From: Aureococcus anophagefferens
Lineage: Eukaryota > Sar > Pelagophyceae > Pelagomonadales > Pelagomonadaceae
Assembly: GCF_000186865.1 (NCBI RefSeq)
Contig: NW_008705561.1
Coordinates: 1,944,747-2,008,746 of the forward strand
Length of the DNA stretch: 64,000 nt
Direction: 5' to 3'
Part shown: piece after piece, positions 29,401 to 59,872 of the stretch
How the letters are laid out: every line of letters starts with the position of its first letter
Position numbering within the stretch: the first letter of the stretch is position 1
Notes under the pieces: model-generated
Told to the model about the DNA's origin: nothing
Seen by the model: only the letters and a program-made list of their open reading frames with translations
Databases searched by the model: none
Position numbers and translations under genes: made by a program

Positions 29401-32400
29401 ACCGTCGCGTCGTCGCCGCTCTCGACGACGACGCAGGCGTCCGCGTCCCAGTCGTCGCCGGAGACGTAGCGGAGGCAGGTCGCCGCCGTCGCCGACGAGC
29501 ACGTCGCGTTCGCGACGCCGCCGCACGCGCCGCGGCCGCCGCACGCCGCGTCGCGCGTCTCCGCCGCCGTCGTCCCGCGGCAGGGCTCCGGCGGCGCCGC
29601 GCCGGACGAGCAGTTGACGGCGACGACGTAGGACCTGTGTGGATTCCAAATATTCAACCCGACTTCAATGCGCGCGTACTCGAACGGTTTGGACCAGACT
29701 CTTTCGCTGTGCTTCGAGAACTCGATGGGAGCCATCGATTCGTCCAAAAATCAGCCGAATGGACGTCGATGTGACCGAGCTAGAGAGTTCTGAAGTTTGG
29801 TGGGGACCCCCCAAACCAGTGGTTGGAATCCACACTGCGTAGGACCAGTCGGCGGGAGGGTCGGCGACGCGGCGGAGCTCGACGACGAGCGCGTCCGCGG
29901 CCGCCGCGGCCTGGTCCGCCCGCCAGCCGTCGTCGAGGCGCCGCGCGGTCCCCGCGGTCTCGTCGTCGGCGAAGCGCGCCGCGCGGACGCGGACGACGGT
30001 CGTCTCGACGGGCGTCGGCAGCGCGGGCCGCGGGTCCTCGACGAATTCGGCGACGGCGACGTCGACGAGCACGGCCTCGTCGGCCCAGCTCGCCGGCAGC
30101 GCGACGCGCGACGCGCGCGGGTCCGCCGAGGCCGCGAAGGTCGCCGCCGCGGCGTCGATGGTCTCGAGGCGCGCCACGGCCATGGCGCCGTGCGGGCCCG
30201 CGAGCTCCGCGGCGGCCTCGCCGGGCACGAGCCCGAGCGCGAGCGCCGCGGAGAGGTCGTCGAGGCTCCCCGCGAAGGCGTCGCCGCGCTGTTCGTCGAC
30301 GGCGAGCGTGCCGCCGCCCAGGAGCGCGTCGAGCGCGGCGAAGACGCCGTCCGCCGTGCCCTCGGCGAGGCCCGCGGCCGCCGACGCGCTCGCGAGCACG
30401 GCGACGGCGTCGAGCGCCGCGCCCGACGCGGCGGGCTCGAGCTCGTCGGCGCGCGCCGTGAGCGCCGCCGCCGCGCTCGCCTGGCGCTGCACCGTGAGCT
30501 GCGTCCGCGGCAGCTCCTCGTCGACGACGGTCGCGAGCGCGTCGACGAGGTCGCCCCGGAGGTCCGCCACCGCCGCGCACGCCGCGTCGCCGCAGGGCGC
30601 GATCTCGCCCGTCGCGGCGACGGCCGTCGCGAGCGCGCCGCCGTAGTCGGGATCCGCGGCGCCGAGCGACTCGTCCAGGAGCTCCTCGACGACGGGGTCC
30701 AGCGCCTCCACCCCCAGGTCGCTCGCGGCGACGGTCGCGTTCTCGCCCACGCGTGCGGCCGCGCCGAGCGCGTCCGAGACCTCGCCGACGACGACGCGGA
30801 CGCCGCCGCCGCCGCCGCCGCGGGGCAGCCGCGCGGCCGCCGCGGCCTCGGACGACGCGGCGATCTGCGTCGCGGCGGTCTCGCCGGGGAGCCGGTGGTA
30901 GAACGCGTAGGCGAGGGGCAGCTGGTCGTCGACCCAGCCGTCGAGCGACAGCGCGAACTCCGTGAGGAGCGCGACGCCCGCCGCCGGCGCGACGGCGAGG
31001 CGGCCGGACCGCGGCGGCGCGTTCGTCGTCACCGCGATCGTCGCCGCCGCGGCGTCGCCGCCAGAAGTCGCCACCAGTTCGAACTCGTAGGCCTCGCCCG
31101 GCGCGAGGACGCCCGCGCGCACCACGAGGTAGACGAGGCCCGCGTCGACGCGCTGCGCGGCCGGCGTGAGCAGGTCCGCGTCGCGGAAGGGTCCGGACCA
31201 CACGACGTCCGCGAGCGCGCCGTGCGGCGTCTCGACGACGGCCGCGAGCACGAGCTCGGCCGACGGGTTCACGGCGTCGGCGTTCTCGACGGCCTCGGGG
31301 ACGACGCGGAGCGCCACCGGCGCGGCCGCCGGCGCGGCTGTCGGCGCCGGCGCGGTCGGCGCGGCCGCCGGCGCGGCGGTCGGGGGCATCGAGACCGCGG
31401 CCGTCGGCGGCGCGGCCGTCGGCGCCGGGGCCGTCGGGGGCATCGAGACCGCGGCCGTCGGAGCCGGGGCCGCAGCCGTCGTCGGCGCGGCCGTCGTCGG
31501 GGCGGAGGTCGTCGGGGCGGCCGTCCTCGGCGCGGCCGTCGTCGGCGCGGCCGTCGTCGTCGCGGCCGCGACTGGCGCGGCCGCGACCGGCGCGGCCGTC
31601 GTCGGCGCGGCCGCGGCCGGCGCGGCCGCGACCGGCGCGGCCGACGGCGCGGCCGACGGCGCGGGAACGGCGAGGTCTTCGAAGGCGGCTTCGAGGTCCG
31701 CGGCGACCGCGGCGGCGAGGATCCGTTCAAGCACGTGCTCGGCATCGGCGAGATCGGCGGTGACGCTCTCTGCGTTTGCCGGTGCGACCGCGATCGCGTA
31801 GCGGAGCGTGAAGGCCGCCTCGTCGAGGCGGCGGCGGCGGCTCACGGCATCCTCCGAGAGGAACTCGACGTCGACGGCGTCCGCGCCGACGCCCGCGGCG
31901 TCGGCCAGGCCCGCCTCGAAGACCGCGGAGTTGTTCGCGGCCGTCGCCGCGTCCATGCCCGAGAATCTCACGGTACCGACGACAGCCAGGACCGTCGGCG
32001 ACTTGGACGCTCCGAGGGGGCTCGGCGTCGGGCGTCGCGTGGGGCTCGGCGAGGGCCGCCGCGTGGGGCTCGGCGAGGGCCGCCGCGTGGGGTCCGGGGC
32101 GGCGACGAACTCGGACGTCGGCCGGGGATCTTCGACCATTTCGTCGGCGGCCGCCGTGGGCCTCGGCGTCGGGTCGGGCGAGAGCGGGCGTCGCGTGGGG
32201 CTCGGCGTCGGGCGTCGCGTGGGGCTCGGCGAGGGCCGCCGCGTGGGGTCCGGGGCGGCGACGAACTCGGACGTCGGCCGGGGATCTTCGACCATTTCGT
32301 CGGCGGCCGCCGTGGGCCTCGGCGTCGGGTCGGGCGAGAGCACTGGAGCCGACGTCGGCTCGCCGGGCGCGACCGTCGGCGCGGCGGTCGGTCTGGGCGT

Positions 32401-34673
32401 CGGCGGGAGCGTCGGCGTCCGGGACGGCTCGAGCGTCGGCTGCGCGGACGGGTCAGGTGACGGTGGCGGCGTCACGGGCGACGCCGTCGGGTCTCCAGGC
32501 GAGGTCGGCTTGGGCGTCGGCTCGAGCGTCGGCTCGGGCGTCGGTTTGGGCGTCGGCGAGACCGAGGGCGCGGGCGTCGGCGAGACCGAGGGCGCGGGCG
32601 TCGGCGAGACCGAGGGCGCGGGCGACGGCGCGGGCGTCGGCGAGACCGAGGAGGGCGCGGGCGTTGGGTTGCATGTGAATTCGGCATACCAAGGAAGGCA
32701 TTGGTCGAAGGCGTCGGCGTTGAGGAACATGTCCGTCTTCGCCGTCGTGGGCGACACGTCCCAGTCGCCGATGGGTTGATTGAAGGCGGAGGCGTCAGCG
32801 AACGCGGCGTACATGTTCATCACCGCCGACGTGTCCCAGTCGCCGATGTCCGCGTCGAAGGCGGCGGCGTTGAAGAACATCTCCCGCATGTTCGTCACCT
32901 TCGACACGTGCCAGTCGCCGATGAGTGCGTTGAAGGCGACGGCGTCGTAGAACATTCCGCGCATGGTCGACACCTGCGACACGTCCCAGCCGCCGATGGC
33001 CGCGTTGAAGGCGGTGGCGTTGTAGAACGTCTCGTACATGTCCGTCACCCGCGACACGTCCCACTCGCCGATGTCCTGGTTGAAGGTGGCGGCGTCCCAG
33101 AACATTGTGTACATGCTCGTCACCTGCGACACGTCCCAGTTGCCGATGTCCGCGTCGAAGGCGGCGGCGCCTTGGAACGTGCTGACCATGTTCGTCACCT
33201 GCGACACCTCCCAGCCGCCGATGGGCGCGTTGAAGGCGGCAGCGCCGTAGAACGCGGCGTACATACTCGTCACAGACGACACGTCCCAGGCGCTGATGTC
33301 CTGGTCGAAGGCCGCGGTCTCGCCGAACGTGAAGCCCATGTCCGTCAACTTGGACGTGTCCCAGCCGCCGATGTCCTGGTTGAAGATGGTGGCGCCGTCG
33401 AACGTCTCGTACATGTCCGTCACCGACGACACGTCCCAGGCGCCGATGTCCTGGTCGAAGGCCGCGGCGGCGTCGAACGTGAAGCTCATGTCCGTCACCT
33501 TGGACGTGTCCCAGCCGCCGATGGGCTCGTCGAACGACGCGGTCTCTTGGAACAGGGTGGCCATGTCCGTGACCCTGGACGTGTCCCACCTGCTGATCGG
33601 ACCGTACTTGGTCTGGGCGTCGCCGGAGTCATCGAGCCACTCGTCGACCGCGTTCTCGAGGTTGTTCCGATTGTCGAAGGGGTAGCACTGGAGGTCGGGG
33701 TGCCACGGGTCCCCCCCCACTCCGAACGAGTTGGCAGGCGTCACCCAGTTGACGCACTGGATGAATTCGTCAGCCCCCAAGAACATGTAGTCCATGACCG
33801 TCACCTTCGACACGTCCCAGCCGCCGATGGGCGCGTCGAATTCGGCGGCGCCTTCGAACGTGCGGCGCAGGGTCGTCACCTTCGACACGTCCCAGTCGCC
33901 GATGGGCGCGTCGAAGACGGCGGCGCCGAAGAACGTCGCGTACATGTTCGTCACCTCCGACACGTCCCAGGCGCCGATGTCCGCGTTGAAGGCGGCGGCG
34001 CCGGAGAACGTGCGGCGCAGGGTCGTCACCTTCGACACGTCCCAGTCGCCGAGGTCCTCGTCGAACGATGCGGCGCCTTGAAACGCGCCTGCAGGGTCGT
34101 CACCGACGACACGTCCCAGGCGCCGATGTTCTGGTCGAAGGCGGCGGCGTCGCTGAACGCGCCGCGCAGGGTCGTCACCTTGGACACGTCCCAGGCGCTG
34201 AGGTCTTGGTTGAACGACGCACAGCCTAGGAACGCGCCTTGCAGGGTCGTCACCGAGGACACGTCCCAGGCGACGAAGGCGCCGAAAAAGTCCAAGGCGC
34301 CGAAGGGCTGGTCGAAGGCGGCGGCGTCGGTGAACGCGCCGCGCAGGGTCGTCACCTTCGACACGTCCCAGGCGCTGAGGTCTTGGTTGAACGACGCGCA
34401 GCCTTGGAACGCGCCTTGCAGGGTCGTCACCTTCGACACGTCCCAGGCGCCGATGTCCCCGTCGAACGATGCGGAGGAATTGCACAGGGAGGCCATGTTC
34501 TTGACCTTCGACACGTCCCAGTCGCCGATGGGGCCGTACTTGCTCTCGGCGTCGCCAGAGTCCGAGATCCACTCGCCGACTGCCTCCTTGAGCTCGTTCG
34601 AGTTGGAGAACTCGACCGGTGTGGCGCGAGCGAGCGACGCCGTGGCGAGGATCGTGATCGTGGCGGCGTTCAT
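26472..34673 (-). CDS. Giant DUF285-repeat / REJ-like multi-TM surface receptor
   Basis: Signal peptide from the ATG at 34673, then about 20 DUF285 (BspA-like) repeats 'F.GA..F...IG.WDVS.VT.M', a Ser/Thr/Pro stalk, a REJ-like region, a Cys-rich GPS-like segment ('WDADACVV...VCACA') and about seven membrane helices. Exon 1 ends at 29846; intron 29635-29845 is an introner; exon 2 is 29634-26472. The join 'PADW-SYVVAVN' restores frame. The cytosolic tail has three copies of a ~23-residue acidic/SRLE repeat and two copies of a 30-residue repeat ([16 protein letters not shown]...). Total near 2,660 residues. One base appears missing near 34088-34092, so the DUF285 frame shifts there; this may be a sequencing error or a lesion. 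Polycystin-1-type receptors share the REJ-GPS-TM order; ligand and function are unknown. Confidence 0.75.
29635..29837 (-). mobile_element. Introner element 1 (intron in the REJ-like gene)
   Basis: 203 bp. Terminal inverted repeats C(A/T)GTGTGGATTCCAA; 8-bp target duplications GTCCTACG at 29838-29845 and 29627-29634. The upstream copy of the duplication supplies the GT donor and the element end CACACAG supplies the acceptor. Same plus-strand orientation as elements 3 and 4, but here the host gene is on the opposite strand. Confidence 0.93.
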
Positions 34674-35115
34674 CTTGTCGATAAAATACGTGCCTGAGCG
34701 CGATCGGCGATCTCGAGATCGAGAGCTCGTCGAGCCGCCCTCGACGCGCGCGCGATCGACGCGCCCCGGCGTCGGCGCCCATGCGGGTCCATGCGGATGG
34801 CGGTCGCGCGTTCGTCGATTCGGGCGCCGCGGAGGACGGCCCCGCGGCGGGACGCCCGGCGCCGACGTTTGAAAGCCGAAGGCGCGCGGCGGATGCGAAG
34901 GACGGGTTTCGACCCGCTGTGCGCCCCGCTCTCGAGCGCGAGCCGTTTTCGCGACGCGGGGAGCGCGCGAGAGTTAGTTAGTTGGGCGAGAAGGCGGTGT
35001 GGTGGTGCGCAAGGGCGTGAAGCGATAAATCAAGCCGATTCTGAGGTTGTCTACGATTGCGAAACGGCCGCACAAGCGGGGGAGTCGGCCTTACGCACAG
35101 AGGCCTCCGCAAGCC
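34674..35115. other. Intergenic region, no gene seen
   Basis: About 440 bases between the start of the REJ-like gene and the stop of the glycosyltransferase-like gene, both on the minus strand. Open frames here are Arg-rich and short. No RNA gene or repeat is evident. Confidence 0.4.
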
Positions 35116-36006
35116 TTACCCACCCGTACCCCTCCGCCGCCTTTTCGCCTCTTTGCGGAGGCAGGCGGCGTCGCGGGCCGCCCGGTCCGCGAAGGCGGCC
35201 GCGCGGTCGGCGTCGCGCTTCGCGGCCGCGCCGACGAGGTGCCGCGCGGCCGCAAAGGCCGGGTCGGACACGAAGGCGACGCGGCAGCGGTCCCGGGGCG
35301 TCGCGACGGCCTCGAAGGCCGCGTTCTCGGGCATGGGGCTCAGCGCGCAGAGCGCGGGCCGCGCGTCGAGGAAGGCCGCGAGCCGCGCGAGGAACCGGCG
35401 CGCCCACCGCGTCCGCCGCGCCGCGAAGAGGCCGAAGCGGTCCGCGACGACGAGGTCCAGGAGGCCCGTTCCGTGGCCCCCGGCGCGCGCGGCGAGGCGC
35501 AGGGCGCGGTCCAGGCCCGCGCCGGGCGGCGTCGCCGTCGCGCAGGCGAAGGACAGGTCCGCGTCCGCGAAGACGAGCCACTTTCCCGCGGGCGCGTCCG
35601 CGAGCGCGGCGCCGACGGCGCGGAGCTTGCCGCAGCGCGCGCGGGCGCCCGCCGGCGCCGCGCGCGCGTAGGGCAGCCCGTGCGCCGCCGCGTAGGCCGC
35701 GTGGTTCGCGGCGGTCGCGTTCGCGACAACGGGCCACGCGGCCTCGACGCCCGCGTCGACGTAGTAGCTCTGGAGCGCCGCGACGGCGGCGGTCCCGTTG
35801 GCCGCCCCGCGGCCGCGTCTCTCCGCCGCCGCGACGCGCGCCGCGTCCATGGCGCGGCACTTGGCCCGCGGGTACGCCGTCGGGCGCCGCGGCGCGAGGC
35901 GGTCCCGGGCGACGATGCGCAGGACGCCGCCGAAGGAGAAGGCGGCGTAGGCGAGCGCCGCGGCGCAGAGCGCCGCGGCGGCGCAGCGGCGGAGCAGGGC
36001 GGGCAT
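35116..36006 (-). CDS. Type II glycosyltransferase-like protein (GT34-like)
   Basis: 296 residues. N-terminal membrane anchor (MPALLRRCAAAALCAAALAYAAF), then a luminal domain with 'NHAAYAAAHGLPYARA', 'RCGKLRAVGAALADAPAGKWLVFADADLSF' in segments, in which ADADLS has the DxD metal/sugar-nucleotide motif of GT-A enzymes. This order (YA..HG, then K..A, then W..F.DAD) is like GT34 galactosyl/xylosyltransferases. Likely Golgi. It is shorter than most family members and ends in a basic tail (RRRRGTGG), so activity is uncertain. Confidence 0.6.
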   Translation of the reverse strand: MPALLRRCAAAALCAAALAYAAFSFGGVLRIVARDRLAPRRPTAYPRAKCRAMDAARVAAAERRGRGAANGTAAVAALQSYYVDAGVEAAWPVVANATAANHAAYAAAHGLPYARAAPAGARARCGKLRAVGAALADAPAGKWLVFADADLSFACATATPPGAGLDRALRLAARAGGHGTGLLDLVVADRFGLFAARRTRWARRFLARLAAFLDARPALCALSPMPENAAFEAVATPRDRCRVAFVSDPAFAAARHLVGAAAKRDADRAAAFADRAARDAACLRKEAKRRRRGTGG

Positions 36007-36153
36007 GGTCTCGCCGCCGCCGTCATGCGTGCCTCATGCTGCCATCATCCAGCGTGCCCATCATCCAGAGTGCATCAAGGCCAGTGTTTGCCTCGAGTCG
36101 AACGCATCGATGTGGCTTCGTCCAGCACAAAACAGCCTCAGCTTAGCAACGAC

Positions 36154-37212: not shown

Positions 37213-37246
37213 GGGCGCTTTTTTTTACGGACGGGGCGCGCCCGGC

Positions 37247-37582: not shown

Positions 37583-37837
37583 GGCCCGCTCGTTTCGCGC
37601 CGGCGGGGCAGCGCCCTTTTCAAGGGCTGGACGCGAAGCGCGCCGCGCCGCTCGGTGGTTGGATGGGGCTGCCCACGACGCTGCGGGCGCGCTCACCTCG
37701 TATTAAACAGAGGCAACACCAGGTTAACTTGACTGCATCCATGACCCTCTCGCAAGAGCAAGAGGTGAGAAGCATCAAGCCGCCGAAGCCGTCGCACACG
37801 AGCGCCAGCATCCGCAGCCACCAGGCGTGCCCAACAC

Positions 37838-38683: not shown

Positions 38684-38744
38684 GGACGTATTTACTTTTT
38701 TAGTTGAACCCGTTGTTGCACATACAAAAAGCGCGCTCAACGAG

Positions 38745-39533: not shown

Positions 39534-39624
39534 ACGCCGCGGCATGTACGCGACGAGCGGGAGCGCCCGGCGCGATGCCGCGACCACCCCCACTTCCACC
39601 AACGTTAACTCCGCCGCGACCTCC

Positions 39625-41083: not shown

Positions 41084-43976
41084 ATGGGTGCGGGCAGCCC
41101 GCGTTGGCAGCGCGTGGCGTGGATCGGGGGCTCGCTCTGCGCGTTCACGGCCGTGAGCCACGGCGTGCGCGGCGGGGAGACGCTCGTCGCTCGTCCAGGC
41201 GCCGCCGCCGCGGACGCCTTCCACCTGCGACGGCTGGACGAGGACGACCACAGCGACGACGACCACAGCGACGACGACCACGCGGACGACCACCACGCGG
41301 ACGACCACCACGCGGACGACCACAGCGACGACGACCACGCGGACGACGGCCACGGCGACGACGGCCACGGCGACGACGGCCACGGCGACGACGGCCACGG
41401 CGACGACGGCCACGGCGACGACCACGGCGACGACCACGGCCACGCGGACTTTACGTACGGCTCCTGCTACCACTCGTGCCACTTCTGCGAGGACCCGGCG
41501 TGCCTCAACTTCTGGCGCGAGGACAAGTACAGCGGCAAGTTCGGCCCCGCGAACCACGGCGGCCTGACGGAGATGAACTACAGCAAGTCGATGATCACCG
41601 TCGTGCTCATCCTCATCACGCTCTGCTTCGAGTTCGCCTACGAGAAGGCGCACCACGCCGTGCACCACAACCACCAGAGCGAGAGCGTCTGGCTCCGCCA
41701 CCTCAGCGACTACGACGTGCCCGACGGCGGCGGCGGCCAGCACCACAGCCTCGCGGGCCGGTCCGCGGGCGACGTCCTCAAGTCCGTGCGCCACGACCAG
41801 CTGCGCATGCACTACAAGACGTTCCTCCTGCAGCGCTTCACGTCGGAGCTCATGGTGCTCGGGTTCCTCGCGTTCTCCGTCTGGGTGTCGCTCAAGAGCG
41901 GCTTCATCAAGTTCCTCTCGGGCGGCCGCGACGTCAAGTGGGGCCCCCAGACGGACATCCAGCTCAAGGAGACGATAGAAGAAGCCCACATGGGCATCTT
42001 CGTCGCCATGACCATCTACTTCGCGGCGCTGACGACGATCTGCGACCAGTGCACGGCGGAGTCGGACCGCACGCTCCAGTACGAGCGGCTCTTGGCCATG
42101 GAGCGGTCCAAGGGCGGCCAGGTCGTCAAGACGCCCCACGACGGGCGGCTGAGCGTCGTCAAGGTCGCGGCGGTCGTGACGCAGTCGGCGAAGAACCTGA
42201 GCCTCCACGACTACAAGATGCTCCGCGAGGCCTTCGTCCGCGCCGGAAACAACCGGTGGAGTGGACGCGTCCAGCGAAACTTCTCGAGCTCGGTCGCGTC
42301 GACGTCGTTTCGGCTGATGTTTGGACGGATCGTTTTCTCTCGGCGAGTTCTTTTCAGACGGGAGAGAACCGATGGCAACACACACATGCCTATTGAAGTC
42401 GTGTTGCATATGTTCGTTTCGCCCAGGCCTTCGTGGAGTGGATCCGGCTCAACGCGATCCCGTCGTACGGCGGCGAGTACGGTTTAGCGCTGTGTGGAAA
42501 TCAAATCTTCAACCCGACTTCAATGTGCGCGTGTGCGACCGTTTCGACGCGAGGCTTTCTGCCGTGCTTCGAGAACTCCACGAGAGCAATCGATTCGTCC
42601 AAAAATCAGCCGAATCGACGTCGATTTGATTGAGATAGAGAGTTCTGAAGTTTGGCCCCGACGTCCCAGCTCACTGGTTGATTTCCACACAGGCCTCGCG
42701 CACGGCGCCAAGGCGTCGGAGTTCAACGACGACTTCCACTTCGCGCTCTACCTCCGGGTGCACCTCGACGCGCTCATCATGGAGCTCATCGAGATCCAGC
42801 CGACGACGTGGATCTTCGTCATCTTCTTGCTCATCATCCACGCGGCGCTCGCGCGGTCGCAGCTCCTGGGCGAGTGGATCATCTACTTCCCGCCCCTCGC
42901 GGGCATCGCCATGCTCGTGGCGCTCCACGTCGCGCTGACGTTCTACGAGCGCATCTACTGCGACGAGGACCGCGTGCGGCGGTCGCGGCTCGAGCGAGCG
43001 GCGTCGGGCAAGCTCGCCGTGTCGAAGACGGAGTCGAACCACGACCTCGAGGACATGCTGCTGCGCGTCATCCAGGCGCTGCTGCTCTTCTGCATGTACT
43101 CCGTCGGGTCCCACGTCGTGTCGAAGCACGTCTGGAAGCGGCGCCACGACCCGGGCTACGACCGGCGGACGACGGTCGTCGGCTGGTGCCTCAACCTCTT
43201 CCTCATCCTCGCCGTCGCGCTCCTCCTCCCGAAGATCGTCTTCCTCTCGAACATCATCATGCGCATCCCGCCCATGGTCGACAAGAACGAGATCAAGATG
43301 GTCGCGGAGCAGTGCCGCACGCGGGGCGCCGCGTGCGAATCAAATCTTCAACCCGACTTCAATGTGAGCATACGCGACCGTTTCGACGCAAGTTTTTCTG
43401 CGATGCTTCGAGAACTTGACGAGAGCAGTCGATCCGTCCAAAAATCAGCCGAATCGACTTCGATTTGACCGAGCGAGAGAATTTCAAAGTTTGGTCAGGA
43501 CGTCCCAGCTCACCGGTTGATTCGCACACAGGCAGGGCGCCTACAAGGACCTGTGCGCGTTCCACGCGGACAAGGCGCACCACGCGCCCGGGGACCACGA
43601 CGCGACCCCGGGCCACCACGACCCGGCGTCCAACGGCGCCCAGTCGACGTCGACGTTCCTCGTCAAGACGCGCCACGGCGAGCCGCGGCAGGAGTCGTCG
43701 TCCGGCGCCGTCGACGACTCGCTCGCGGCTTTCGCCGAGCTCGCCGAGGACGACGACGGGCGGCCGCCCGGCACGAAGGTCGTCGCCGTCGACGACGTGC
43801 GGGCCGAGGACTACGCGCCGCCGGACGACGCGGCCCTCCCGCCGCTCCGAGCGCCGCGGAACTCGGGCGAGCGCGAGCGCGGGCCGGCGAGCGCAAGGAG
43901 GGCGCCGCCTGACGACGTCCCCGCCGCGTTCCACCTCGCCCGTCCGCCCGTCATACCGCGCTCTCTCTATGTGTAG
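41084..43976 (+). CDS. MLO-like seven-TM protein split by three introners
   Basis: Four exons (41084-42229, 42427-42481, 42693-43320, 43532-43976) give 757 residues; the last exon has no ATG. Order: signal peptide, a His/Asp/Gly repeat (~52-122, DDGHGDDGHGDD) that could bind metal, a Cys-rich bit (CYHSCHFCEDPAC), then membrane helices. Family-like segments are 'MITVVLILITLCFEFAYEKAHH', 'LMVLGFLAFSVWVSL', 'MLREAFVEWIRLNAIP' and 'FHFALYLRVHLDALIMELIEIQPTTWIFVI'. These follow the MLO pattern, including the RALEDDF-like stretch. Plant MLOs are calcium-linked membrane proteins. Every join restores frame across an 8-bp target duplication; introns 1 and 3 need GC donors, intron 2 has GT. The tail is long, acidic and Pro-rich. 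Confidence 0.8.
42238..42426 (+). mobile_element. Introner element 2 (MLO intron 1)
   Basis: 189 bp flanked by perfect 8-bp duplications GCCTTCGT (42230-42237 and 42427-42434). Intron 42230-42426 uses a GC donor (GAG|GCCTTC), giving 'LREA-FVEW'; a GT at 42236 would instead leave two extra residues, also in frame. Weak inverted repeats (CCGCGCCGGAAAC / CTGGGCGAAACG). The interior shares ttcggctgatgtttggac with element 5. Confidence 0.85.
42490..42692 (+). mobile_element. Introner element 3 (MLO intron 2)
   Basis: 203 bp with perfect 15-bp inverted repeats CTGTGTGGAAATCAA / TTGATTTCCACACAG. Target duplications are GTTTAGCG (left, intronic) and GCCTCGCG (right, exonic), matching at 5 of 8. Intron 42482-42692 is GT-AG. 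Confidence 0.92.
43329..43531 (+). mobile_element. Introner element 4 (MLO intron 3)
   Basis: 203 bp. Inverted repeats CCGCGTGCGAATCAA / TTGATTCGCACACAG (2 mismatches). Target duplications GCGGGGCG and GCAGGGCG (7 of 8). Intron 43321-43531 uses a GC donor. The interior closely matches element 3 in the same orientation. Confidence 0.92.
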
Positions 43977-46794: not shown

Positions 46795-49700
46795 ATGTTT
46801 GGCCAAAACAGCGGCAGCGGCGGCGGCTTCGGCGGCGGCGGCGGCGGCTTCGGCGGCGGCGGCTTCGGCGCCGGCGCCGGGGCGAACCCGAACGCGACGC
46901 CCTGGTCGCCGAACACGCCCTTCGGCGGCGGCGGCGCGCCCGCGCCCGCGCAGACTCCTTTTGGCGGCGGCGGCGCGTCCTTCGGCGGCGCGGCGACGCC
47001 CTTCGGCGGCGGCGCCGCGGCCGCGACGCCCTTCGGCGGCGCCGCCGCGAGCGCCGCGCCCGCGTTCGGCGCCGCGGCCCCGGCGGCGACGCCCTTCGGC
47101 GGCGGCGGATCGTCGTTCGGCGGCTCCGGCGGCGGCGCGGCGACGTTCGGCTCGCCGGCGGCGTCGACGCCCTTCGGCGGCGGCGGCGCGCCGGCCGCGT
47201 CGTCGACCTTTGGCGGCGGGTCGGGCGGCGCGTCGTCGTCCTTCGGCGGCGGCGCGAGCGGCGGCTTCGGAGGCGGCGGCGGCGCCTTCGGCGGCGGGAG
47301 CGGTACCTTCGGCGGCAGCGGCGCCGCGAGCACGACGAGCAGCACGCCGTTCGGAGGCGGCGGGAGCAGCACCTTCGGCGGCGGCGGGAGCAGCACCTTC
47401 GGCGGCGGCGTGGGCGCGTCCGGCGGCGCGCCGTTCGGAGGCGGCGCGAGCACCTTCGGCGGCGGCGGCGGAAGCGGCACCTTCGGCGGCGGCGCGAGCA
47501 CGACGAGCAGCACGCCCTTTGGAGGCGGCGCGAGCAGCACCTTCGGCGGCGGCGGCGCGAGCACGACGAGCGGCGCTCCCTTAGGCGGCGGCGGGGCCGG
47601 CTCGAGCGGCGCCTTCGGAGGCGGCGGCGGCGCGAGCAGCGCCTTCGGCGGCGGCGGCGGCGCGAGCAGCACCTTCGGCGGCGGCGGCGCGTTCGGCGGC
47701 GGCGACGCCGGCGCCGCGAAGAAGGGCGCGCCGAGCGCGTTCGGCGGCGGCGGCGCGTTCGGCGGCGACAAGGAGTCGAAGAAGGGCGGCGGCAAGGCCG
47801 CCGCAGCCAAGACGCCGTTCAAGGCCGGCGGCGGCGCGGAGCGGGGCCGGTCGCGGGAGCGCGGCGGCCGCGGCGCGGGCGCCGGCGCGCGCGACGGCAG
47901 CGGCGGCCGCGGCGGCGGCGACCGGGCCGGGTCGTCGTCGTCCGCGTCGGTCAAGGTCTCGGGCCTGCCCCTCGACGTCGGCGAGGACGCCCTGCGCGCG
48001 ACCTTCGGCGCCTTCGGCGCCGTCAAGTCGACGCGCGTCGCGCGCCAGGCGTCGACGGGCCACAGCCGCGGGACCGGTTTCGTGAACTTCGAGAGCGCCG
48101 ACGCGGCGCGCGAGGCCGCGGCGGCGCTCGACGGCACGGACGCCTTCCACAAGGGCAAGGCCATCCACTGCGCGCTCCAGGCCGCGCGGCCCGCGCCCGA
48201 CGCCGGCGGCAAGGGCGCGCCGGGCGGCAAGGGCGGCAAGGGCGCGGCGTCGGCGGGCAAGGGCGCGCCGGCGGCCGCCGGCGGCCTCTTCTGCGTCAAG
48301 GTCGCGGGCCTCGGGTCCGAGCTGACCGACGAGGCCTTCAGCGCCGCCGTCGCGCCTTTGGAGGGCCTGCGGTCCGTGCGCGTGCTCCGGGACCCGCGCG
48401 GCGCCGCGCTCTACGGCTACGCGAACTTTGGGTCGCGCAAAGAGGCCGACGCCGCGTGCCGCGAGCTCAAGCGGTCCGCGGCCTTTGGCGGCACGCCCAT
48501 CTGCACGGTCAAGGAGAGCCGCGAGAAGCCGTCCGACGCCGGCCGGAGCCTGTCGCCGCCCAAGGCCGCGCCGAGGCCCGCGGCGCCGAAGAAGGCCGCC
48601 GCGGGCCCGCCGCGCGCGGTCCTCGTCGCCAAGGGCGCGCCCAAGGACGAGCGGTCCCTCAAGTCCGTCTTCGAGTCCTTCGGCGCCGTCGAATCCTGCC
48701 ACGTGTCCGAGGCGGCGACCTACGTGCTCTTCGAGGACGCGGACGCGGCCGCGCTCGCCGCGCGCGAGATGTCCGGCATCGACGCGTTCATGGCCGGCGC
48801 GCTCGAGTGCGCCGTCGGCGCGCCGCCGGGCGCGAACGCCCCCGCGAAGGCGCCCCAGTTCGCCGGCGCCAAGGTCTGGACGCGCGAGGCGGCGCCGCCG
48901 CCGAAGGAGGCGCCGAAGCCAAAGCCCGCGGAGCGCGCGGACCTGAAGGCGCGGAACGCGGAGCGCTTCGCCGCGCACGACATCTCGAAAACGCCCGCGC
49001 GGCCCCGGAGCCCGCGGAGCCGGAGCCCGGCCAAAATCGTCCAGCAGGAGGCCGGCGCCGCGGACGATCTGGTCGGCGCGTGCCTCCAGTTCTGCCCCCA
49101 GGACGAGATCGACGAGCGCGTCCGCTTCAAGGAGCTCGACAAGTACGAGAAGCCGCCGGGCCACGAGGCCATGGACGACGACGAGCTCGCGCGGCGGGCG
49201 ATCCCCTACGCCATGAAGAAGTACAAGCGCTCCGCCGCGGGCGACGTCCAGTCCGTGCCCGAGATCGTGAGGCCGCCGGACGTGCTCTTCGCGGCGTTCG
49301 AGCACCTCGCGGCCCACGTCATCGACGACGCGGCGCCGGGCGACTCCGAGGACGACCAGATGACGCGCTACATCTTCCTCTGGAACCGCTTCCGCGCCAT
49401 CCGCAAGGACTTCATCCTGCAAAACTACACGACGGGCGGCAACGTCGACGCGCGCGTCGTCCGCGTCTTCGAGGGCATGGCGCGCTACTTCATCGGCATC
49501 GAGCAGCAGCTCTCGGGCCACCCGGAGTGGCGCGAGGGCATCGCCCACGGCAAGCACAACGCCGAGAGCCTGTCGGAGACGCTGTCCGCGCTCCTCGCGT
49601 TCTACGAGATGGGCAAGCACGCGGCCGACGCGGGCGACGTGCTCCGCAACGAGCCCGAGTTCACGCAGTACTGGCTCATCTATTTCCTGGACCAGGAGCA

Positions 49701-51744: not shown

Positions 51745-51754
51745 CTTTTACGAC

Positions 51755-52447: not shown

Positions 52448-52771
52448 CGCGGCCCCCCCGAATGCGGCGGCGGCGGCGACGCGGCGACGGGCGTGCGGCG
52501 GTTTTGGGGGGTCTGCGACGGCGCGCAGGGTCGGATGCGCAGAGTCTGCAGCGCTCGCAGGGGCGGAGGTCAATCTTGCCGGCAAGTGCCGTGCAACGCG
52601 TTCGTGGCTCTCGAAGATGGCTCTCGAGCCGGAGAGCTTCGGCTGCCGGCACGGCCGTGGCAGCTCGCCGAATTTTAGAGACTCAGGGTGTCAAGTGGCC
52701 CACTGTGGGAGGCGTCCAGGGGTTGAGTCCACATAGTGGCTCAATATACCCGTCACCAAGCTGTTCGCTCC

Positions 52772-53458
52772 TTACGAAGCCCCGGCGGCCTTGTCCTGCT
52801 CCGCCGCGACGACGAGGCCCGTGAGCTTCTCCTCGGCCCAGTGCCTCCACTCGCGGAAGTTCACCTTGCCGTTCTTGTTCGCGTCGATCTCGGTCCAGCA
52901 CGCCATGGCTTGGTCCTTGGTCAGGCCGTGCTGCAGGAGGAAGCGCCGCACGTCGGCCTTGGACAGCTGGCGCTCGCGGTCGCCGTCGGCGAGATCCATC
53001 TCCTTGAAGCTCGTGCGCACGAGTTCGACGGTCTCCTTCATGATGTAGTGGTCGAACTTGGCCACGGTGAGGCGACCGCTGCCCATGTCGTCCATGGCCT
53101 TGAAGCTCGCGGAGGCCTCCTCCCAGGTGGCCCCGCGCGCGACCATGGTCGTGATGTACTCGCGGCGGCTGATCGAGTGGTCGCCCTCCTCGTCCAAGGA
53201 ATCGAATATTGCGCGCAGCGCGACAGCGCGATCGTCCCTCGACAGGGGCTCGTCGAGCACGGCGGCCTTCCAGTCCGATTCCACTTCCCCGGCGTCCGGA
53301 TCGGCGGCCGAGGCCTTGGCGGCGGCGCGCTCCTTGTCGTTGAGCTTCTGGCTGACTTGGGAGATGGTGAGCGTTTCCGTGTCGGACGCGTACGCGCTGG
53401 AGACCAAGGCGACGAGCTGGTCCTTCGTGTAGCCCTTGGTGCTCGCAGCGGCGCCCAT
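52772..53458 (-). CDS. EF-hand protein with predicted N-myristoylation
   Basis: 228 residues from the ATG at 53458. MGAAASTK fits an N-myristoylation signal (Gly2, Ser6). Four EF-hand positions are visible; the last, 'DANKNGKVNFREW', is canonical, the others ('DEEGDHSISRREY', 'DDMGSGRLTVAKF', 'DLADGDRERQLSKADV') are degenerate or stretched. Likely a membrane-associated calcium sensor. Confidence 0.85.
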   Translation of the reverse strand: MGAAASTKGYTKDQLVALVSSAYASDTETLTISQVSQKLNDKERAAAKASAADPDAGEVESDWKAAVLDEPLSRDDRAVALRAIFDSLDEEGDHSISRREYITTMVARGATWEEASASFKAMDDMGSGRLTVAKFDHYIMKETVELVRTSFKEMDLADGDRERQLSKADVRRFLLQHGLTKDQAMACWTEIDANKNGKVNFREWRHWAEEKLTGLVVAAEQDKAAGAS

Positions 53459-53592
53459 CGTGTGTCGAGTCGGCGCTGCGAGCTCGGTGCGAGAGGGCAA
53501 GGGCAGCCTAGAAGCGGGCAGGCTGGTTGACCTTGCAGCATCATCGGTAAAAAAACACATTGACAATGCGCAGCATGCCCATCTTCCACTGG

Positions 53593-53668
53593 TGAATCCC
53601 ATGGCTCCCGCGTCCTGCCCTCGGGAGTCCTACGTTTAGAGTCGCATCACGGTGAATCCCATGGCGCC
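53593..53668 (+). repeat. Duplicated start region with a 12-codon upstream ORF
   Basis: gtgaatcccatggctcc (near 53592) and gtgaatcccatggcgcc (near 53652) are 60 bases apart. The upstream ATG (53601) opens a 12-codon frame, MAPASCPRESYV, that stops at 53637-53639, 22 bases before the main ATG at 53661. Confidence 0.85.
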
Positions 53669-54431
53669 CAGCGGGGGCCCCCAGGCCATCGACATGCAGC
53701 CCAGCGCCGAGGCCGTGCCCATCCGGCCGGTGATGGCCGAGCCCATCGAGGTCCACATGCTGGGCCTCGGCGTCGTGGGCATCGTGCGGGACCAGCACGC
53801 GGCGAAGCTGGCGAAGCGCGTGCTGTTCCTGAGCCAGGTATTGGTCGGCATCCAGCTCGTCCTCGCCGTCGTCGCCATCGTGCGGAACCACGGCATCTTG
53901 TTCGTGCTCGTGGGACTGTTCTTCAACCTGATCCACCCGACGTGCGGCTACTTCGGCGTGCGGAAGAAGGACAGCGGCCTTTTATGCCTTTTTTGCAGCT
54001 ACGGCATGGCCCAGGCGGCGGCCGACGCGATCGTGGCGTGCACGTTCATCGTCGACGCGACCCAGGCGGAGACGTACCGGCGGCGGGTCGCGTCGGGCTG
54101 CATCGCCGGCTACTACGCCGTGCAGGGCGTCGTCCACCTCGCGGTCTTCCACTGGGGCAACAAGCTCTACAACAACCGCAACTACATCGAGGGCGGGAGG
54201 AGGCAGATCACGCCCGTGGGGCGGCGGCCGCCGCCCGCGGAGCCCTTCCCCGTCGCGACGGCGTTCCCCGTCGACGAGGTCGCCGCGGTGCTCGTGCCGG
54301 ACACGCCGCGCGGCGACGACGGCGCGCTGAGCGACGCGCCGAGCGACGCGCCGTCGGCGCACGTCGGCAGTCGGACGCTCGACGACGACCTCGAGGCCGC
54401 GCCCGTCGTCGAGGACTTCCTAAAGGGCTAG
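53661..54431 (+). CDS. Four-TM hypothetical membrane protein
   Basis: 256 residues. Four hydrophobic helices, for example 'LVGIQLVLAVVAIV', 'GILFVLVGLFFNLIHPTCGYFG', 'QAAADAIVACTFIVDA' and 'YYAVQGVVHLAVF'; short basic loops; a disordered acidic C-terminus ending EDFLKG. Similar four-TM proteins are common in stramenopiles without known function. Its TAG overlaps the stop of the convergent gene in a CTAG. Confidence 0.65.
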   Translation: MAPSGGPQAIDMQPSAEAVPIRPVMAEPIEVHMLGLGVVGIVRDQHAAKLAKRVLFLSQVLVGIQLVLAVVAIVRNHGILFVLVGLFFNLIHPTCGYFGVRKKDSGLLCLFCSYGMAQAAADAIVACTFIVDATQAETYRRRVASGCIAGYYAVQGVVHLAVFHWGNKLYNNRNYIEGGRRQITPVGRRPPPAEPFPVATAFPVDEVAAVLVPDTPRGDDGALSDAPSDAPSAHVGSRTLDDDLEAAPVVEDFLKG

Positions 54432-55696
54432 AGCGCGGACCCCCGGGGCGCCTTGTCGACCGCGTCGTCGAAGAACGCGTCGACCGCCGCCGTGTACCGC
54501 GCCCGGTAGAAGTCGAAATGGCGGCAGTGGGGGCTCTTCTCGAAGACGACCGTCTCGATGGGCAGGCTCGCGAAGCACCGCAGCAGCGTGATGAACGCGT
54601 CGATGGACGGCTTCCGGATGAGCGCGTCCTCCGCGCCGTGGACGAAGAGGTAGCGGCAGTAGGGCGGCAGGTCGCTGCAGAGCCGCTCGAGCCCCCGCGT
54701 CTGGATCCGCAGCACCGCTCCGTCGTCGGCGCGGACGACGCGCGCGACGCAGGCGCCGAACGCGGGCCCGTCGACGGCCTTGGCGAACGTCAGGCCCGCC
54801 TTCGTGCCGCGAAATAAATTCTTGACCATGCCGCCGATGGCGTCGATCATCATGTCCTCGTCGCCGTGCATGTCGGCCGCGCTGTCGAAGACGCAGCCCC
54901 GGAGCCGCTTCTTGAACTCCGGCGACGCCTCGATGAGCCGCCCCAGCGCGGACGCGCCGTTGTTCGAGAACGCGTGGCAAAGCACGTGGTGCGCGCCCGC
55001 GCATTTCGCGACGACGTCGTCGATCTGCGCCTCCGCGGCGCCCCGGAGCGCCGGGGGCGCGAACGCGGGCGTCACGGCGACGACGCGCCGCCACCGCGGC
55101 CGCGCTGTCGCGTAGTGGTCCACGACGCCCTGGAGCTCGGGCAGCGACGAGCCGCCGAAGCCCAGGATGACGACGGCGACGGGCGCGGCGTCCTCCGGCG
55201 CCGCGGACGCGGCCACCCTAAACCCGGACCGCGCGGACGACGCGAAGGCGAGCGCCGACGCGCACAGCGCGCCGACGGCGTCGTCCGCGTCGACGCGCGC
55301 CGCCAACGCTTCGCAGATGGGCAGCAGGTGCGTCCCCTTGCACACGGCGGCGACGCAGCACTCGCCCGCGAGCTCCGGCGTCACGTCGCCTCTCTCCGCC
55401 GCTTCGAGCCGCGCGAGGACCGCGGCGCCGTCGGCGTCGTCGTCGGGGGCGAGGAGTTTGGGGTTCCAGGTGCTCCAGCCCGCCGCGTAGCCCTCGCCGC
55501 GGGGCGTGCACCGGACGCGCGTCTTGCGGCCCTCGAGCTCGACGGCGCCGTCGACATCGACGGCCACGGCCGCGCCAAAGGGCACGAGGCCCACGGGCGC
55601 CGACGTCAGCGACGGCGCCGCGCGGAGCTTCAGGCCGCGCCGGGCGACGACGCGGTGGAGCGTGCCGGACGAGGCCACTTCGTCCAGGGCAGCCAT
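54428..55696 (-). CDS. TMEM53/DUF829-type alpha/beta hydrolase
   Basis: 422 residues from the ATG at 55696. An N-terminal SH3-like region (~10-85, 'RGLKLRAAPSLTSAPVG') precedes an alpha/beta-hydrolase fold: 'VVILGFGGS', nucleophile region 'HVLCHAFSNNGASALGRL', acid 'FVHGAEDALI', and 'SPHCRHF' for the His. These are the TMEM53/DUF829 signatures; TMEM53 proteins are thought to act at the nuclear envelope, but the substrate is unknown. The SH3-like N-terminus is not typical of the family. Confidence 0.75.
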   Translation of the reverse strand: MAALDEVASSGTLHRVVARRGLKLRAAPSLTSAPVGLVPFGAAVAVDVDGAVELEGRKTRVRCTPRGEGYAAGWSTWNPKLLAPDDDADGAAVLARLEAAERGDVTPELAGECCVAAVCKGTHLLPICEALAARVDADDAVGALCASALAFASSARSGFRVAASAAPEDAAPVAVVILGFGGSSLPELQGVVDHYATARPRWRRVVAVTPAFAPPALRGAAEAQIDDVVAKCAGAHHVLCHAFSNNGASALGRLIEASPEFKKRLRGCVFDSAADMHGDEDMMIDAIGGMVKNLFRGTKAGLTFAKAVDGPAFGACVARVVRADDGAVLRIQTRGLERLCSDLPPYCRYLFVHGAEDALIRKPSIDAFITLLRCFASLPIETVVFEKSPHCRHFDFYRARYTAAVDAFFDDAVDKAPRGSAL

Positions 55697-55951
55697 AGCC
55701 GAGTGATGACCGGGCAAGAAGTTGACTTTGGCCGGGGTCGTCGTTGACGAGCGAGCTCGACATCGATTGCTCCCGCCCGCTCGAGGCGGCCCTGTGTACG
55801 AAAACGCCGACGGCCCCCGGCGCCACGAGCGTAGCCATTCGTGCTATTCTGCCCGGGCACCACCCCTGACGAAAAAAATCTGCGCGAAGCCCCGAAAAAA
55901 CGACCGCGCGAACCCCAAACAAGTCGCGCGCAAAAATCAGCATGGCGGGGA

Positions 55952-56989
55952 ATGGTAACGGACAGCACGACTTCATCGAGTTCGTCTGTAAGCCGGCCTG
56001 TCGCGGCGTCCGACTGGCTCCCCAGCCGCGCGCCCCGGACCGCCGCCGCGCGCGCGCGCCGACGAACGACCGCCTCGTCTTCGACGCCGGCCGCCTTCCG
56101 CCCCGGCCGCGCGCCCCGGACCGCCGCCCCGCGCGCCGTCACCGCGCGCGCCCCGCAGGTCGAGGACCTGTACCTCGCGTCCGAGGAGAAACGGATGGTG
56201 CGCATCAAGAAGGGGACCGAGTACCGGTGTTCGATGCTCCGGGACCAGCACTTCTCGAGCCTCTTCCGCCACTACGGCAAGCACAACGGCGTCGACAAGG
56301 ACGGCCTCGTCTTCTTCTTCACGGAGGAGCTCATGCAGGAGCTCGACGGCAACGACACGCCGCGGAGCGTCCACCTCCGCAAGAACGACGTCATCGTCAT
56401 CCGCCACCGATACAAGGAGGAGCCCAAGGGCCTCTTCGTGCGCCTCGACCTCGACGAGCGCGACGCTTTGGCCGTCATCGGCGCCTACCCGAGCGCGCGG
56501 AGCCTGAAGTCGGCCGACGGGCGCACGGCGCTCCACCACGTCGCGAAGCGCGCGGGCTACGACGAGCCGGAGAAGGTCCGGGCCGACCTCGCGCGGAAGG
56601 CGACGAAGCTCGCCGTCGACCTGCTGCTCCTGGGCTGCGACCCCTCGGCGACGAACCACTACGGGCAGACGGCGATGATGATCGCCCTGGAGCACGCGAA
56701 GATGGACGCGCCGGACGACCCGCACCGCGAGCTCGTCGGCGTGCTCCGGCCGCACGAGTTCAAGCGCCAGATGGCCGTGATCCGCGCGCACTTCGTCGGC
56801 CGCAAGGCGGGCGAGGGCCGCACGAAAAGCGCCGAGGACATCATCCTCAAGCGCGCGTGCACGTCGAAGAACGTCGACGTCCAGGGCGAGGCCAAGCACA
56901 ACGCGGCCGTCCGCTTCCTCTTCTCCGCGCTCGCGCACGGGAACCAGGCGAGGAACTTCAAGCGCGTCGTCTGCTTCCTCTACGCGTAG
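55952..56989 (+). CDS. SUMO-fold plus ankyrin-repeat protein
   Basis: 345 residues from the ATG at 55952; an ATG at 55942 in another frame is followed by a possible GT donor, so the first exon is uncertain. After a Ser/Arg/Ala-rich leader comes a SUMO/Rad60-type ubiquitin fold: 'FSSLFRHYGKHNGVDKDGLVFFF' (in part) and 'DTPRSVHLRKNDVIVIRHR' match SUMO's 'LKKLKESYCQRQGV...LRFLF' and 'TPKELGMEEEDVIEV'. Two ankyrin-like repeats follow ('DGRTALHHVAKRAG', 'ATNHYGQTAMMIALEHAK'). No C-terminal Gly-Gly. Third SUMO-fold gene in the window, with an intact 'TP..L...D' strand absent from the tandem pair. Confidence 0.65.
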   Translation: MVTDSTTSSSSSVSRPVAASDWLPSRAPRTAAARARRRTTASSSTPAAFRPGRAPRTAAPRAVTARAPQVEDLYLASEEKRMVRIKKGTEYRCSMLRDQHFSSLFRHYGKHNGVDKDGLVFFFTEELMQELDGNDTPRSVHLRKNDVIVIRHRYKEEPKGLFVRLDLDERDALAVIGAYPSARSLKSADGRTALHHVAKRAGYDEPEKVRADLARKATKLAVDLLLLGCDPSATNHYGQTAMMIALEHAKMDAPDDPHRELVGVLRPHEFKRQMAVIRAHFVGRKAGEGRTKSAEDIILKRACTSKNVDVQGEAKHNAAVRFLFSALAHGNQARNFKRVVCFLYA

Positions 56990-57162
56990 CCGGCGGAGCC
57001 CGGACGACGACGACGGCGCGCGGCCCCCCCGCGCGCCACCCTCTCTTTCCGACGCGCCCGCGGCGCGGGCCCCCGCCGACTCCCGGCGGACCCGCGCGCG
57101 CCCGCGGGTCCCGCGCCATCGCGGGCCGTAACTGCGACACAACCACGCCGTTAGAGCTCCTC

Positions 57163-58002
57163 TCAGAGCTCCTTGTCGAAGCCGATCATCTTTTTCAGGA
57201 GGACCTTCCGGACGTGGAGCCAGTCGAGGTCCTTGTCCTTGAGGTGGCCGTTGTCCTCGAGCATGTGGAGGCGGTCGAGCTCGATGTTGAGCGCGCCGGG
57301 CCCCGTCATGCGGCTCTGCTGCTTCTGGATGTAGGCCTTCTCCTTGTCCGTGCACTTCTTGCCGCTCTCCGGGTGGCAGTGCGTCGTCGGCTTCGTCGAG
57401 CCGAAGATGGCGACGACCTCGATCTTGAAGAGGATGACGGAGCCCGCGGGCACGTGCGGGTACTTGTGGTCGCCGTAGGCTGCGGGGGAGATCGGGCGTT
57501 TCGACCGCGCGCGGCGACGGGGGAACGCGGCGCGACGCGCCGAGCTCGCTCGGGCACCAGACGTCCCAGACGTCGCCCTCGACGAGGAAGGGCAGGACCT
57601 CCTGCCAGCAGGGGATGGCGTGCTTCACGTTGACCTTGATCGTGTGGCCGTTGTCGTAGGTCGACGTGAAGACGTCGCCGTCGAGGAGCAGGCCCTGGTA
57701 GTGGAACTCCACAGTACCCGTCGGCGGCTTCGCGTGGAACTCGCCGTCGCCGAACTTGATGATCTTGTACCTAGGCCGCGGCGACCCGTCGGCGAATGCG
57801 CGGCGGCCGCGGCGGCGCGTCGCGCGCGCCGCGCGCTCGGCGAATCTGCCGCGCCGGCGCCGCGCTGCAGCCCCGTGTCCGTCGTGTGGACGTCGTCCTT
57901 CTGGGCGTTGCGCGCGAGGAAGTCGACGCCCTCGGGCGTCGTGCCCGCCGACGCGAGCGCGACGACCCACGCCAGCGCGGCGAAGGCTGCCCGCCTGTCC
58001 AT
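57163..58002 (-). CDS. FKBP-type peptidyl-prolyl isomerase, secretory pathway
   Basis: Three exons: 58002-57866, 57770-57541, 57479-57163; 227 residues. Signal peptide MDRRAAFAALAWVVALASA, then an FKBP domain: 'TGTVEFHYQGLLLDGDVF', 'HAIPCWQEVLP' and 'CPSELAYGDHKYPHVPAGS'. Only GC-AG introns work: 57771-57865 joins 'TGLQ-YKII', and 57480-57540 joins 'PSEL-AYGD', the diagnostic FKBP string. The C-terminal helix ends GFDKEL, similar to but not a canonical KDEL signal, fitting an ER-lumen folding enzyme. Both GC donors read GCGCG. Confidence 0.88.
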
Positions 58003-58253
58003 CGTTGTACACACCTCCGCTGTGCCGCGGATCCCGGCGGATGTTGCTGAATGAGGTGGATGCTTACGCTACACGAGAAGAAGTTTTGGTCTGGAGCCAC
58101 CCACCGGGGGCAGCGTCATGGTGGGTGCCTGAGGCCCGGGGAGCATTCCGCACGTGACCCGGGCCTGGAGCGCTTCGTCCGCGCGCCGCGAGGACCCGCG
58201 GGGCCAGCGCGGGCGCCGCCCGCGGCCCGGGCAGCGGCGAGCGCAAGTCGAAA

Positions 58254-59835
58254 ATGGGCGAGATCCCCAGCGCGGGCCAGGAGTTCGTCGCGACGATCGT
58301 CGACGGGAAGGGCAAGCTCGGGTTCAAGCTCGCGCAGCAGCGCGTGCCCGGGGACTTTTACGCCTTCGTCGTCGAGCACGTGGACGCCGGCGGCGTCGCG
58401 GACGTCGCCGGCATCCTGCGCGGCGCGCAGCTGCTCGCGGTGAACAACAAGCTCGTCGTCTTCGCCGGGAACAAGGCGACGGACTTTTACGAGGTGCTGG
58501 GCGTGGAGACGAACGCGTCGCGCGCGGCGATCCGCAAGGCCTACCTCCAGAAGGCGCTGGACAGGGCAGGAAAAGGGTGTGAAATTCCCAACTTCAAAGG
58601 CTCCGATCTCGGCCGTTTTCCACTCGTTTCGGCTGATTTTTGGACGAGCGATCATCTCTCGGAACGGTCTCGAAGCATGGATGCTTTTTCCGGAACGCGC
58701 GCGCGCGGAACACTCATGTTGAAGAGAACTTGAATCACCCTTTTCCTGCCCAGGCGCTGGAGCAGCACCCGGACCGCGCGGCCGCGCGCGGCGAGGACCC
58801 GGGCGACGGCGGCGCCTTCGTGCTCATCTCCGAGGCCTACGCCACGCTCGCCGACGAGAGCCACCGCGCGTCCTACGACGCCATGCGGGGCTGCCGGGGC
58901 TGCTGCGTGGAGCTCGGCGACGTCGTCAAGATGGTCCGGGGCAGCCCGGGCCCCGTGCGCCTGCGCTTCTTCGAGCCGCCGCTCTGCGAGCTGAGCGACT
59001 ACCGGCGCGGCGCGGGCGCCGTGCGCTCCTTCGAGGGCGACGGCTGCGCCGTCGGCGCGCGGAGCGAGCCGCGGTCCGCGTGCGCCGTCGCGGCCGCGCC
59101 GTCGATGAGCCGGCTCTCGTGGATCGGCGCGGTCGCGCAGCGCGCGTCGGCGGGCGACGTCGACGCGCTCTACAAGCTCGGCGTGGACCACTGCCTGCGC
59201 ATCGCCGACGACTGGCCCGCGGCCGACGTCGAGGACGCGCTGGGCCACGCGCGGGCGTGCCTCGACGCCGCCAAGGCCCGGGGCGACCAGCGCGCGGCGA
59301 CGTCCCTCAAGACGTTGGACGGTCTCGCGCGCGACGCCCAGGGCAACCGGGCCAACGACGGCCTGCGGTTCGCGGCGACGGCGTCGCCCCTCGCGGCCGC
59401 GGCGCTGCAGGACGACGCGGAGGCGCAGCTGCTGGTCGCGATCGCGCTCGTGCGCATCAACACGACGGGCGAGCGGCGCAAGGCGCTCCAGCACGCCGAG
59501 CGCGCCGCCGGGGCCGCGGCGCGGTCCGCGACGCGGGGCAAGAGCGGCACGCGCGAGCAGGACATGGCGAAGACCTTAGTATCGTCCGAGGCCGCGTACC
59601 TCGCGGGTTTGATGCACCTCGTCGACTTCGACGTGGCCGAGGCGGAGAAGCTCTTCCGCGCGGCGGCGGACGTGGGCCACCCCTACGCCAAGGACCGCCT
59701 CAAGGAGCTCGGCGGCGCGCGGCCGCGCCGCGGCGGCTGCCTCTGCTGCCGCCCCGCGTACGACGCGGCCGCGCGGCGCCTCCTGCTGGTCGAGTCCTTC
59801 CGCGAGTGGGAGCAGATCCGCGTCTACACGGCGCA

Positions 59836-59872
<37 letters not shown>

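Follow-up and report, generated by a model that had tools for sequence, protein, structure and literature searches.

How does a gene come by an intron that it did not have before? Introners are the clearest known answer to this old question of where new introns originate, and it is raised anew by a 64,000-nucleotide stretch of the genome of the brown-tide alga Aureococcus anophagefferens (assembly GCF_000186865.1, contig NW_008705561.1, positions 1,944,747 to 2,008,746; hereafter, the window), in which five short elements, IE1 to IE5, interrupt three genes. These elements are very probably introners, that is, nonautonomous cut-and-paste DNA transposons of the type called miniature inverted-repeat transposable elements (MITEs) that would become spliceosomal introns upon landing. 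This interpretation, put forward in an original prediction made from the DNA letters, is right in substance; it draws support from sequence, placement, strand, and reading frame, in an alga from which such elements have been published. The phenomenon itself is therefore not new to this species. As Huff et al. reportedly described in Nature in 2016, introners of A. anophagefferens and Micromonas pusilla are short nonautonomous DNA transposons that carry one splice site and obtain the other from the duplicated target; protein matches point to the same host here, and the splice-site scheme is the same. What is added below is a strand test, a division into one-way and two-way classes, a possible origin of the acceptor in a single base change, and a remark on public gene models.

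How would a transposon turn into an intron? In the proposed mechanism, a transposase encoded elsewhere would mobilize the element, and insertion into coding DNA would leave an 8-bp duplication. Its upstream copy opens with GC or GT, and these two bases would then act as the 5' splice site, whereas the transposon's own short inverted repeat, ending in CAG on the gene strand, would act as the 3' splice site. Splicing, by the spliceosome, would remove one duplicate together with the element and leave the mRNA unchanged, while insertions that could not be spliced would be lost. The mobilizing transposase would be flanked by ends of the type CAGGGCAGG...CCTGCCCTG and by 8-bp duplications.

All five elements are devoid of genes, have inverted ends, and follow one layout on the strand of the host gene: an 8-bp target copy starting with GC or GT, the element, its terminal CAG, and the second target copy. 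Three are exactly 203 bp long, just as predicted. IE2 (42490-42692, plus strand) carries the acceptor motif CCACACAG at both ends; IE3 (43329-43531, plus strand) has the acceptor end GCACACAG and the opposite end CCGCGTGC; and IE4 (29635-29837), whose host gene lies on the minus strand, has the acceptor end CCACACAG and the opposite end CAGTGTGG. The remaining two measure 189 and 192 bp. IE1 (42238-42426, plus strand) is a diverged copy with the acceptor end CGCCCAG, and it matches the profile of the 203-bp family better (2e-25) than that of the other family (1.3e-5). IE5 (58562-58753, plus strand) belongs to a young, one-ended family and runs from the 5' end CAGGGCAGGAAAA to the acceptor end CACCCTTTTCCTGCCCAG. 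Profiles made without these five, from other genome copies, matched the window at the same five places only, in agreement with the positions originally given, and a repeat search of the window independently found the three 203-bp elements.

In each case the upstream duplicate opens with the two bases of the predicted donor. It is GC in IE1 (GCCTTCGT, 42230-42237, plus strand, with an identical second copy at 42427-42434), IE3 (GCGGGGCG, 43321-43328, plus strand, with GCAGGGCG downstream), and IE5 (GCGCTGGA, 58554-58561, plus strand, with an identical second copy at 58754-58761). It is GT in IE2 (GTTTAGCG, 42482-42489, plus strand, with GCCTCGCG downstream) and IE4 (in gene sense GTCCTACG, 29838-29845, minus strand, with an identical second copy at 29627-29634). 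Duplications of 8 bp had been claimed throughout; they are exact in three of the five (GCCTTCGT, CGTAGGAC, and GCGCTGGA) but match at 7/8 positions for IE3 and 5/8 for IE2. Similarly, the motif CACACAG, said to stand at both ends, does so in IE2 but is confined to one end in IE3 and IE4, and IE1 and IE5 instead have CCCAG at a single end.

What does removing these segments do to the genes? When the upstream target copy and the element are taken out, with one target copy staying in the message, open frames are rejoined in three genes, as expected from the claim that the frame breaks at the elements and that their removal restores conserved protein. Host gene A (41084-43976, plus strand) is interrupted by IE1, IE2, and IE3. 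Without them it has a stop-to-stop frame of 849 residues, versus 559 for the best unspliced frame; it has no Pfam match, and its His/Asp-rich and hydrophobic stretches were recognized by eye. Host gene B (58254-60313, plus strand) carries IE5 and encodes a J domain (PF00226), along with a weak, sub-cutoff PDZ match. IE5 interrupts the J domain immediately upstream of the HPD motif, and the joined domain matches PF00226 at 3e-17, whereas the unspliced piece, cut short by a stop inside the element, reaches 1.3e-5. A full-length relative of gene B, P0006 (61% identity), reads AYLAKALELHPDRASARGE without interruption where the joined model reads AYLQKALEQHPDRAAARGE. Host gene C (26472-34977, minus strand), a stop-to-stop open frame once IE4 is removed, has its REJ domain part (PF02010, 3.9e-22) linked by the joining to a part with hydrophobic stretches and also codes for 25-residue, BspA-like repeats, the stretches and the repeats being judged by eye. 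P0008, its sole protein match, aligns poorly over the IE4 region and is uninformative on that element.

How common are such elements in the genome as a whole? The search covered 49.05 Mb in 86 contigs. The 15-base end of the 203-bp family, CTGTGTGGAAATCAA, had 774 matches, versus 0 for a reversed control, far more than chance would give. The two-ended, 203-bp family (family 1) and the one-ended, 192-bp family that includes IE5 (family 2) have the core TCGTCCAAAAATCAGCCGAA in common and differ in their ends; with up to 2 mismatches, core matches numbered 1566 for family 1 and 2039 for family 2, with 0 for the reversed controls. The genome thus holds about 3600 core matches in all, the copies that the original prediction proposed to look for. 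A set of 118 copies was studied individually, a mix of finds by similarity, by the intact 15-base end (which favors intact ends), and by the internal core; its core-chosen part consists of 40 loci, the first 20 plus 20 exact-core places listed on contig C1 and hence not a random draw. A genome-wide lack of 8-bp duplications would have spoken against the interpretation; among the 118 copies the two target copies agree at 8/8 positions in 90, 7/8 in 18, 6/8 in 7, and 5/8 in 3. Mean pairwise identity among core-chosen copies is 0.923 in family 2 (18 copies) and 0.839 in family 1 (20 copies), or 0.931 and 0.850 when similarity-picked copies are included, which makes family 2 the younger of the two on sequence divergence. 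The set in the window had been called recent. That is apt for family 2, but family 1 is older, IE1 is diverged, and IE1 sequence occurs in more than one A. anophagefferens record, as described below.

The evidence that bears most directly on splicing is a test of strand. For each copy, the joined flanks were assigned a coding strand, blind to splice sites, by a codon-bias score whose training set was the three host genes together with another long open frame in the window. The procedure that located the ends scores CTGTG or CTGGG alike at both ends, so that neither strand is favored. The number of usable copies was 104 (50 of family 1 and 54 of family 2), 100 of them outside the window and 4 inside. 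Read on the coding strand, 104/104 copies have CAG at the downstream end, and the upstream target copy starts with GC (57 copies) or GT (47 copies), that is, with GY, in 104/104, against a GY background of 0.201. The opposite strand has GY in 12/50 copies of family 1 and 20/54 of family 2. Core-chosen loci alone give the same picture, with 35/40 usable and 35/35 conforming, and a run without the confidence filter gave strand agreement in 102/102 copies that had a single predicted direction, with an unbroken frame in 101/102. Because CAG stands downstream and GY upstream in every usable copy, the duplicated target would supply the donor and the end of the transposon the acceptor. The genome thereby agrees with the published introner scheme in a test of coding strand that is free of splice information.

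Could this orientation, and the GY start, arise when the transposase chooses its target, perhaps in a way coupled to transcription, rather than from selection for splicing? This is the alternative that survives best, and we consider it unlikely without dismissing it. It would account for the near absence of exceptions. A genome search for exact 22-base family 2 acceptor ends lacking the expected preceding base (the exact end being present in 24 sampled loci and in 2/20 of the core-chosen set) found one place, which has CAG at both ends, is spliceable on the other strand, and joins a coding frame there. It would also fit the location of most resolved copies in coding DNA (104/111) and the tendency of family 2 to have somewhat more GY than background on the noncoding strand (P = 0.0035), which is what a palindromic target preference would produce. 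The coding strand, however, is invisible to a transposase alone, and in family 1, with the core lying with the gene in 30 copies and against it in 20, GY starts 50/50 target copies on the coding strand versus 12/50 on the other; only transcription-coupled targeting could mimic such a match. Selection therefore explains the strand match most simply, and a target preference may add to it.

A second possibility, that these are plain MITE insertions breaking three genes, with the elements unspliced and the genes pseudogenes or misread, is very improbable. Inverted ends and target duplications are, of course, what any MITE would show, and public gene models leave the proposed splice sites unused. 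Yet an element blind to splicing should have CAG and GY on either strand, not on the coding strand in 104/104, and its unused end should not so often lack CAG; moreover, the host frames are open apart from the elements, and the relative of gene B shows conservation through the insertion site. If introns had instead multiplied by reverse splicing of RNA, and not by DNA transposition, their copies would resemble one another along their whole length, but in its simple form that process predicts neither 8-bp duplications (at least 7/8 in 108/118) nor inverted ends nor, in family 1, both core orientations, and it can safely be discounted.

Several observations nonetheless weigh against reading the elements as introners. 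(i) Gene models of A. anophagefferens ignore the proposed splice sites, and these models, which translate introner pieces, are the main sequence-level evidence in disagreement: IE1 is translated in P0001 and P0002, IE3 in P0001, and IE5 in P0005. A further protein match, P0003, also reads into IE1. GC donors were probably disallowed in the gene prediction, with translation of introner sequence in P0001, P0002, and P0005 as the result, though these models may alternatively reflect a donor inside the element. (ii) Splicing motifs of A. anophagefferens introners are canonical according to PMC7789003, as against the 57/104 GC donors found here. (iii) In the strand test, 14/118 copies could not be judged: 6 had unresolved ends or duplications (IE2, whose target copies agree so poorly, among them), 7 had a weak coding call, and 1 had a short flank. 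(iv) Continuity of frame across the joined flanks is expected for any insertion into coding DNA; it is from the strand match alone that the support for splicing comes. (v) One sampled copy departs from the simple rule: L091/L116 (G000:C1:858373-859864) is the only one that lies antisense in a coding gene. Its flanking frames fit removal of a longer stretch, up to a later AG, with several choices of donor and acceptor scoring alike; a short intron may already have been present where this copy inserted. (vi) Selection acting on random insertions does not obviously explain why nearly all resolved copies, 104/111, lie in confidently coding flanks, versus 237/343 tiles of the window, a baseline from which most, not all, training stretches were excluded. 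Selection against copies should be weakest outside exons, yet almost all are in coding flanks, and an insertion preference for transcribed or coding DNA, in addition to selection, is therefore likely.

If these introners are spliced as proposed, must they land in one orientation? The original prediction held that the acceptor works both ways. This applies to family 1 where both ends are intact, the unused end being CAG on its own strand in 29/50 copies; with its core found in both orientations relative to the gene, as mentioned, the family is two-way. It does not extend to family 2, in which the unused end is CAG in 1/54. Family 2 is one-way, every usable copy having its single CAG end on the downstream side with respect to the host gene; in such families, copies would survive only with the CAG end so placed. 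The core of family 2 is nevertheless inverted relative to the ends in 7/55 aligned copies (L010, L055, L057, L059, L076, L083, and L094), while the terminal bases keep their splice polarity. Comparison of nearest neighbors suggests that this inversion probably arose more than once, because L059 is 98.4% identical to ordinary copies whereas others of the turned copies are nearest to each other. The core may have been turned by exchange between the inverted repeats. One-ended and two-ended acceptors in one genome offer a natural comparison by which selection for splicing could be told apart from target choice.

Where might the acceptor have come from? The unused end of family 2 starts with CAGGG in 42/54 copies, and the acceptor end of all 104 copies, in both families, has T and not A as its second base. 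Terminal inverted repeats (TIRs) of hAT transposons start with the consensus C/T-A-A/G-N-G. That start fits 43/54 unused ends of family 2, 3/50 of family 1, and 0/104 acceptor ends, which begin with CTG and are thus off at the second base. Taken together, the CAGGG unused ends and the 8-bp length of the duplication are the grounds for a tentative proposal, to which we give slightly less than even weight: the acceptor could be an ordinary transposon end of a hAT-type ancestor altered by one base, T to A, so that ...CCCTG or ...CACTG became ...CCCAG or ...CACAG. The change at one end would make a one-way introner, and at both ends a two-way introner. In the young family, the ancestral hAT-type ends would already have been pyrimidine rich on the acceptor strand. 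If the proposal is true, the effect of acceptor symmetry on the survival of insertions can be read directly, both classes coexisting in A. anophagefferens.

Known hAT elements offer points of comparison. The element Hermes makes an 8-bp target duplication, as seen here, at the target nTnnnnAn (PMC10368747); no such pattern is apparent in the position table of our duplications, which the GY start dominates. The nonautonomous hAT element Buster1 has the TIR CAGGGCTTCTTAAAC, which begins with CAGGG (PMC4298943); short, imperfect TIRs are a common feature, and the unused end of family 2 mostly has this start. The hAT dimerization/RNase-H domains PF05699 and PF14372 have no match in the genome, and control genomes were equally silent. 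What about an autonomous partner? Exact searches for variant ends, with unusual inner neighbors or the presumed ancestral second base, found 12, 4, 12, and 5 places, of which no two, whether from one list or from different lists, formed an inverted pair within 10 kb; the patterns allowed G or T at one inner position (4, 12, and 5 places) or required the CAG end (12 places) and miss other inner bases. A 745-bp pair of ends on C1 turned out to be two separate introners. Among the open-licence papers searched, no title or abstract opening names the superfamily of the introners of A. anophagefferens.

How do these elements compare with introners described so far? Those of A. anophagefferens are typically about 210 bp long (PMC9481584), to be set beside 203 + 8 = 211 here, and are reported to have direct repeats, constant-length TIRs, and the canonical splicing motifs mentioned above (PMC7789003). 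In the survey by Gozashti et al. (2022, PNAS; PMC9860276), Symbiodinium families bring the 3' splice site with them and obtain the 5' splice site from a 4-bp duplication, the same division between element and duplication as in our window. An Aureococcus sp. from a Tara Oceans assembly differs in that survey; its introners carry both splice sites and add 12 bp to the transcript, whereas here the mRNA is predicted to be unchanged. The survey also reports genic enrichment of introners in 161/175 introner-containing genomes, and its intron comparison allows for insertion in the opposite orientation; the term hAT is absent from its main text.

Two practical points concern the public records. The first is annotation. 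About half of the predicted donors are GC (57/104) and models translate introners at 3/5 sites in the window; for these reasons, annotation of A. anophagefferens should probably allow GC-AG introns. The translated introner sequence in P0001, P0002, and P0005 includes LREAFVRAGNNRWS, CRTRGAACESNLQPDFN, and LQKALDRAGKGC (compare 42230-42426, 43321-43531, and 58554-58753 of the window). The second is sharing among strains. The five named protein matches of the host genes (JL722_15245, JL720_16909, JL720_15791, SO694_00087176, and JL722_15249) are all from A. anophagefferens, with 76-90% identity over the aligned part, where the gene models differ. IE1 sequence appears in models of two records (JL722 and JL720), IE3 in JL722 only, and IE5 in SO694 only. 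Because one of these records may be the window's own assembly, sharing among strains is shown for IE1 at most.

Repeats of a different kind are also present in and near the host genes. In gene C, 75-bp tandem repeats at 32601-34582 (16 copies in the repeat search) encode the BspA-like repeats ahead of the REJ domain, and P0008, the model related to this gene, has PF03382. Near the N terminus of gene A, 15-bp repeats at 41223-41470 encode the His/Asp-rich stretch (DDHADDHHADD...), the length of which varies among records. Lastly, repeats of the GGCTTCGGCGGCGGC type at 46800-47800 encode glycine/FG-rich sequence that, by eye, is like that of nucleoporins.

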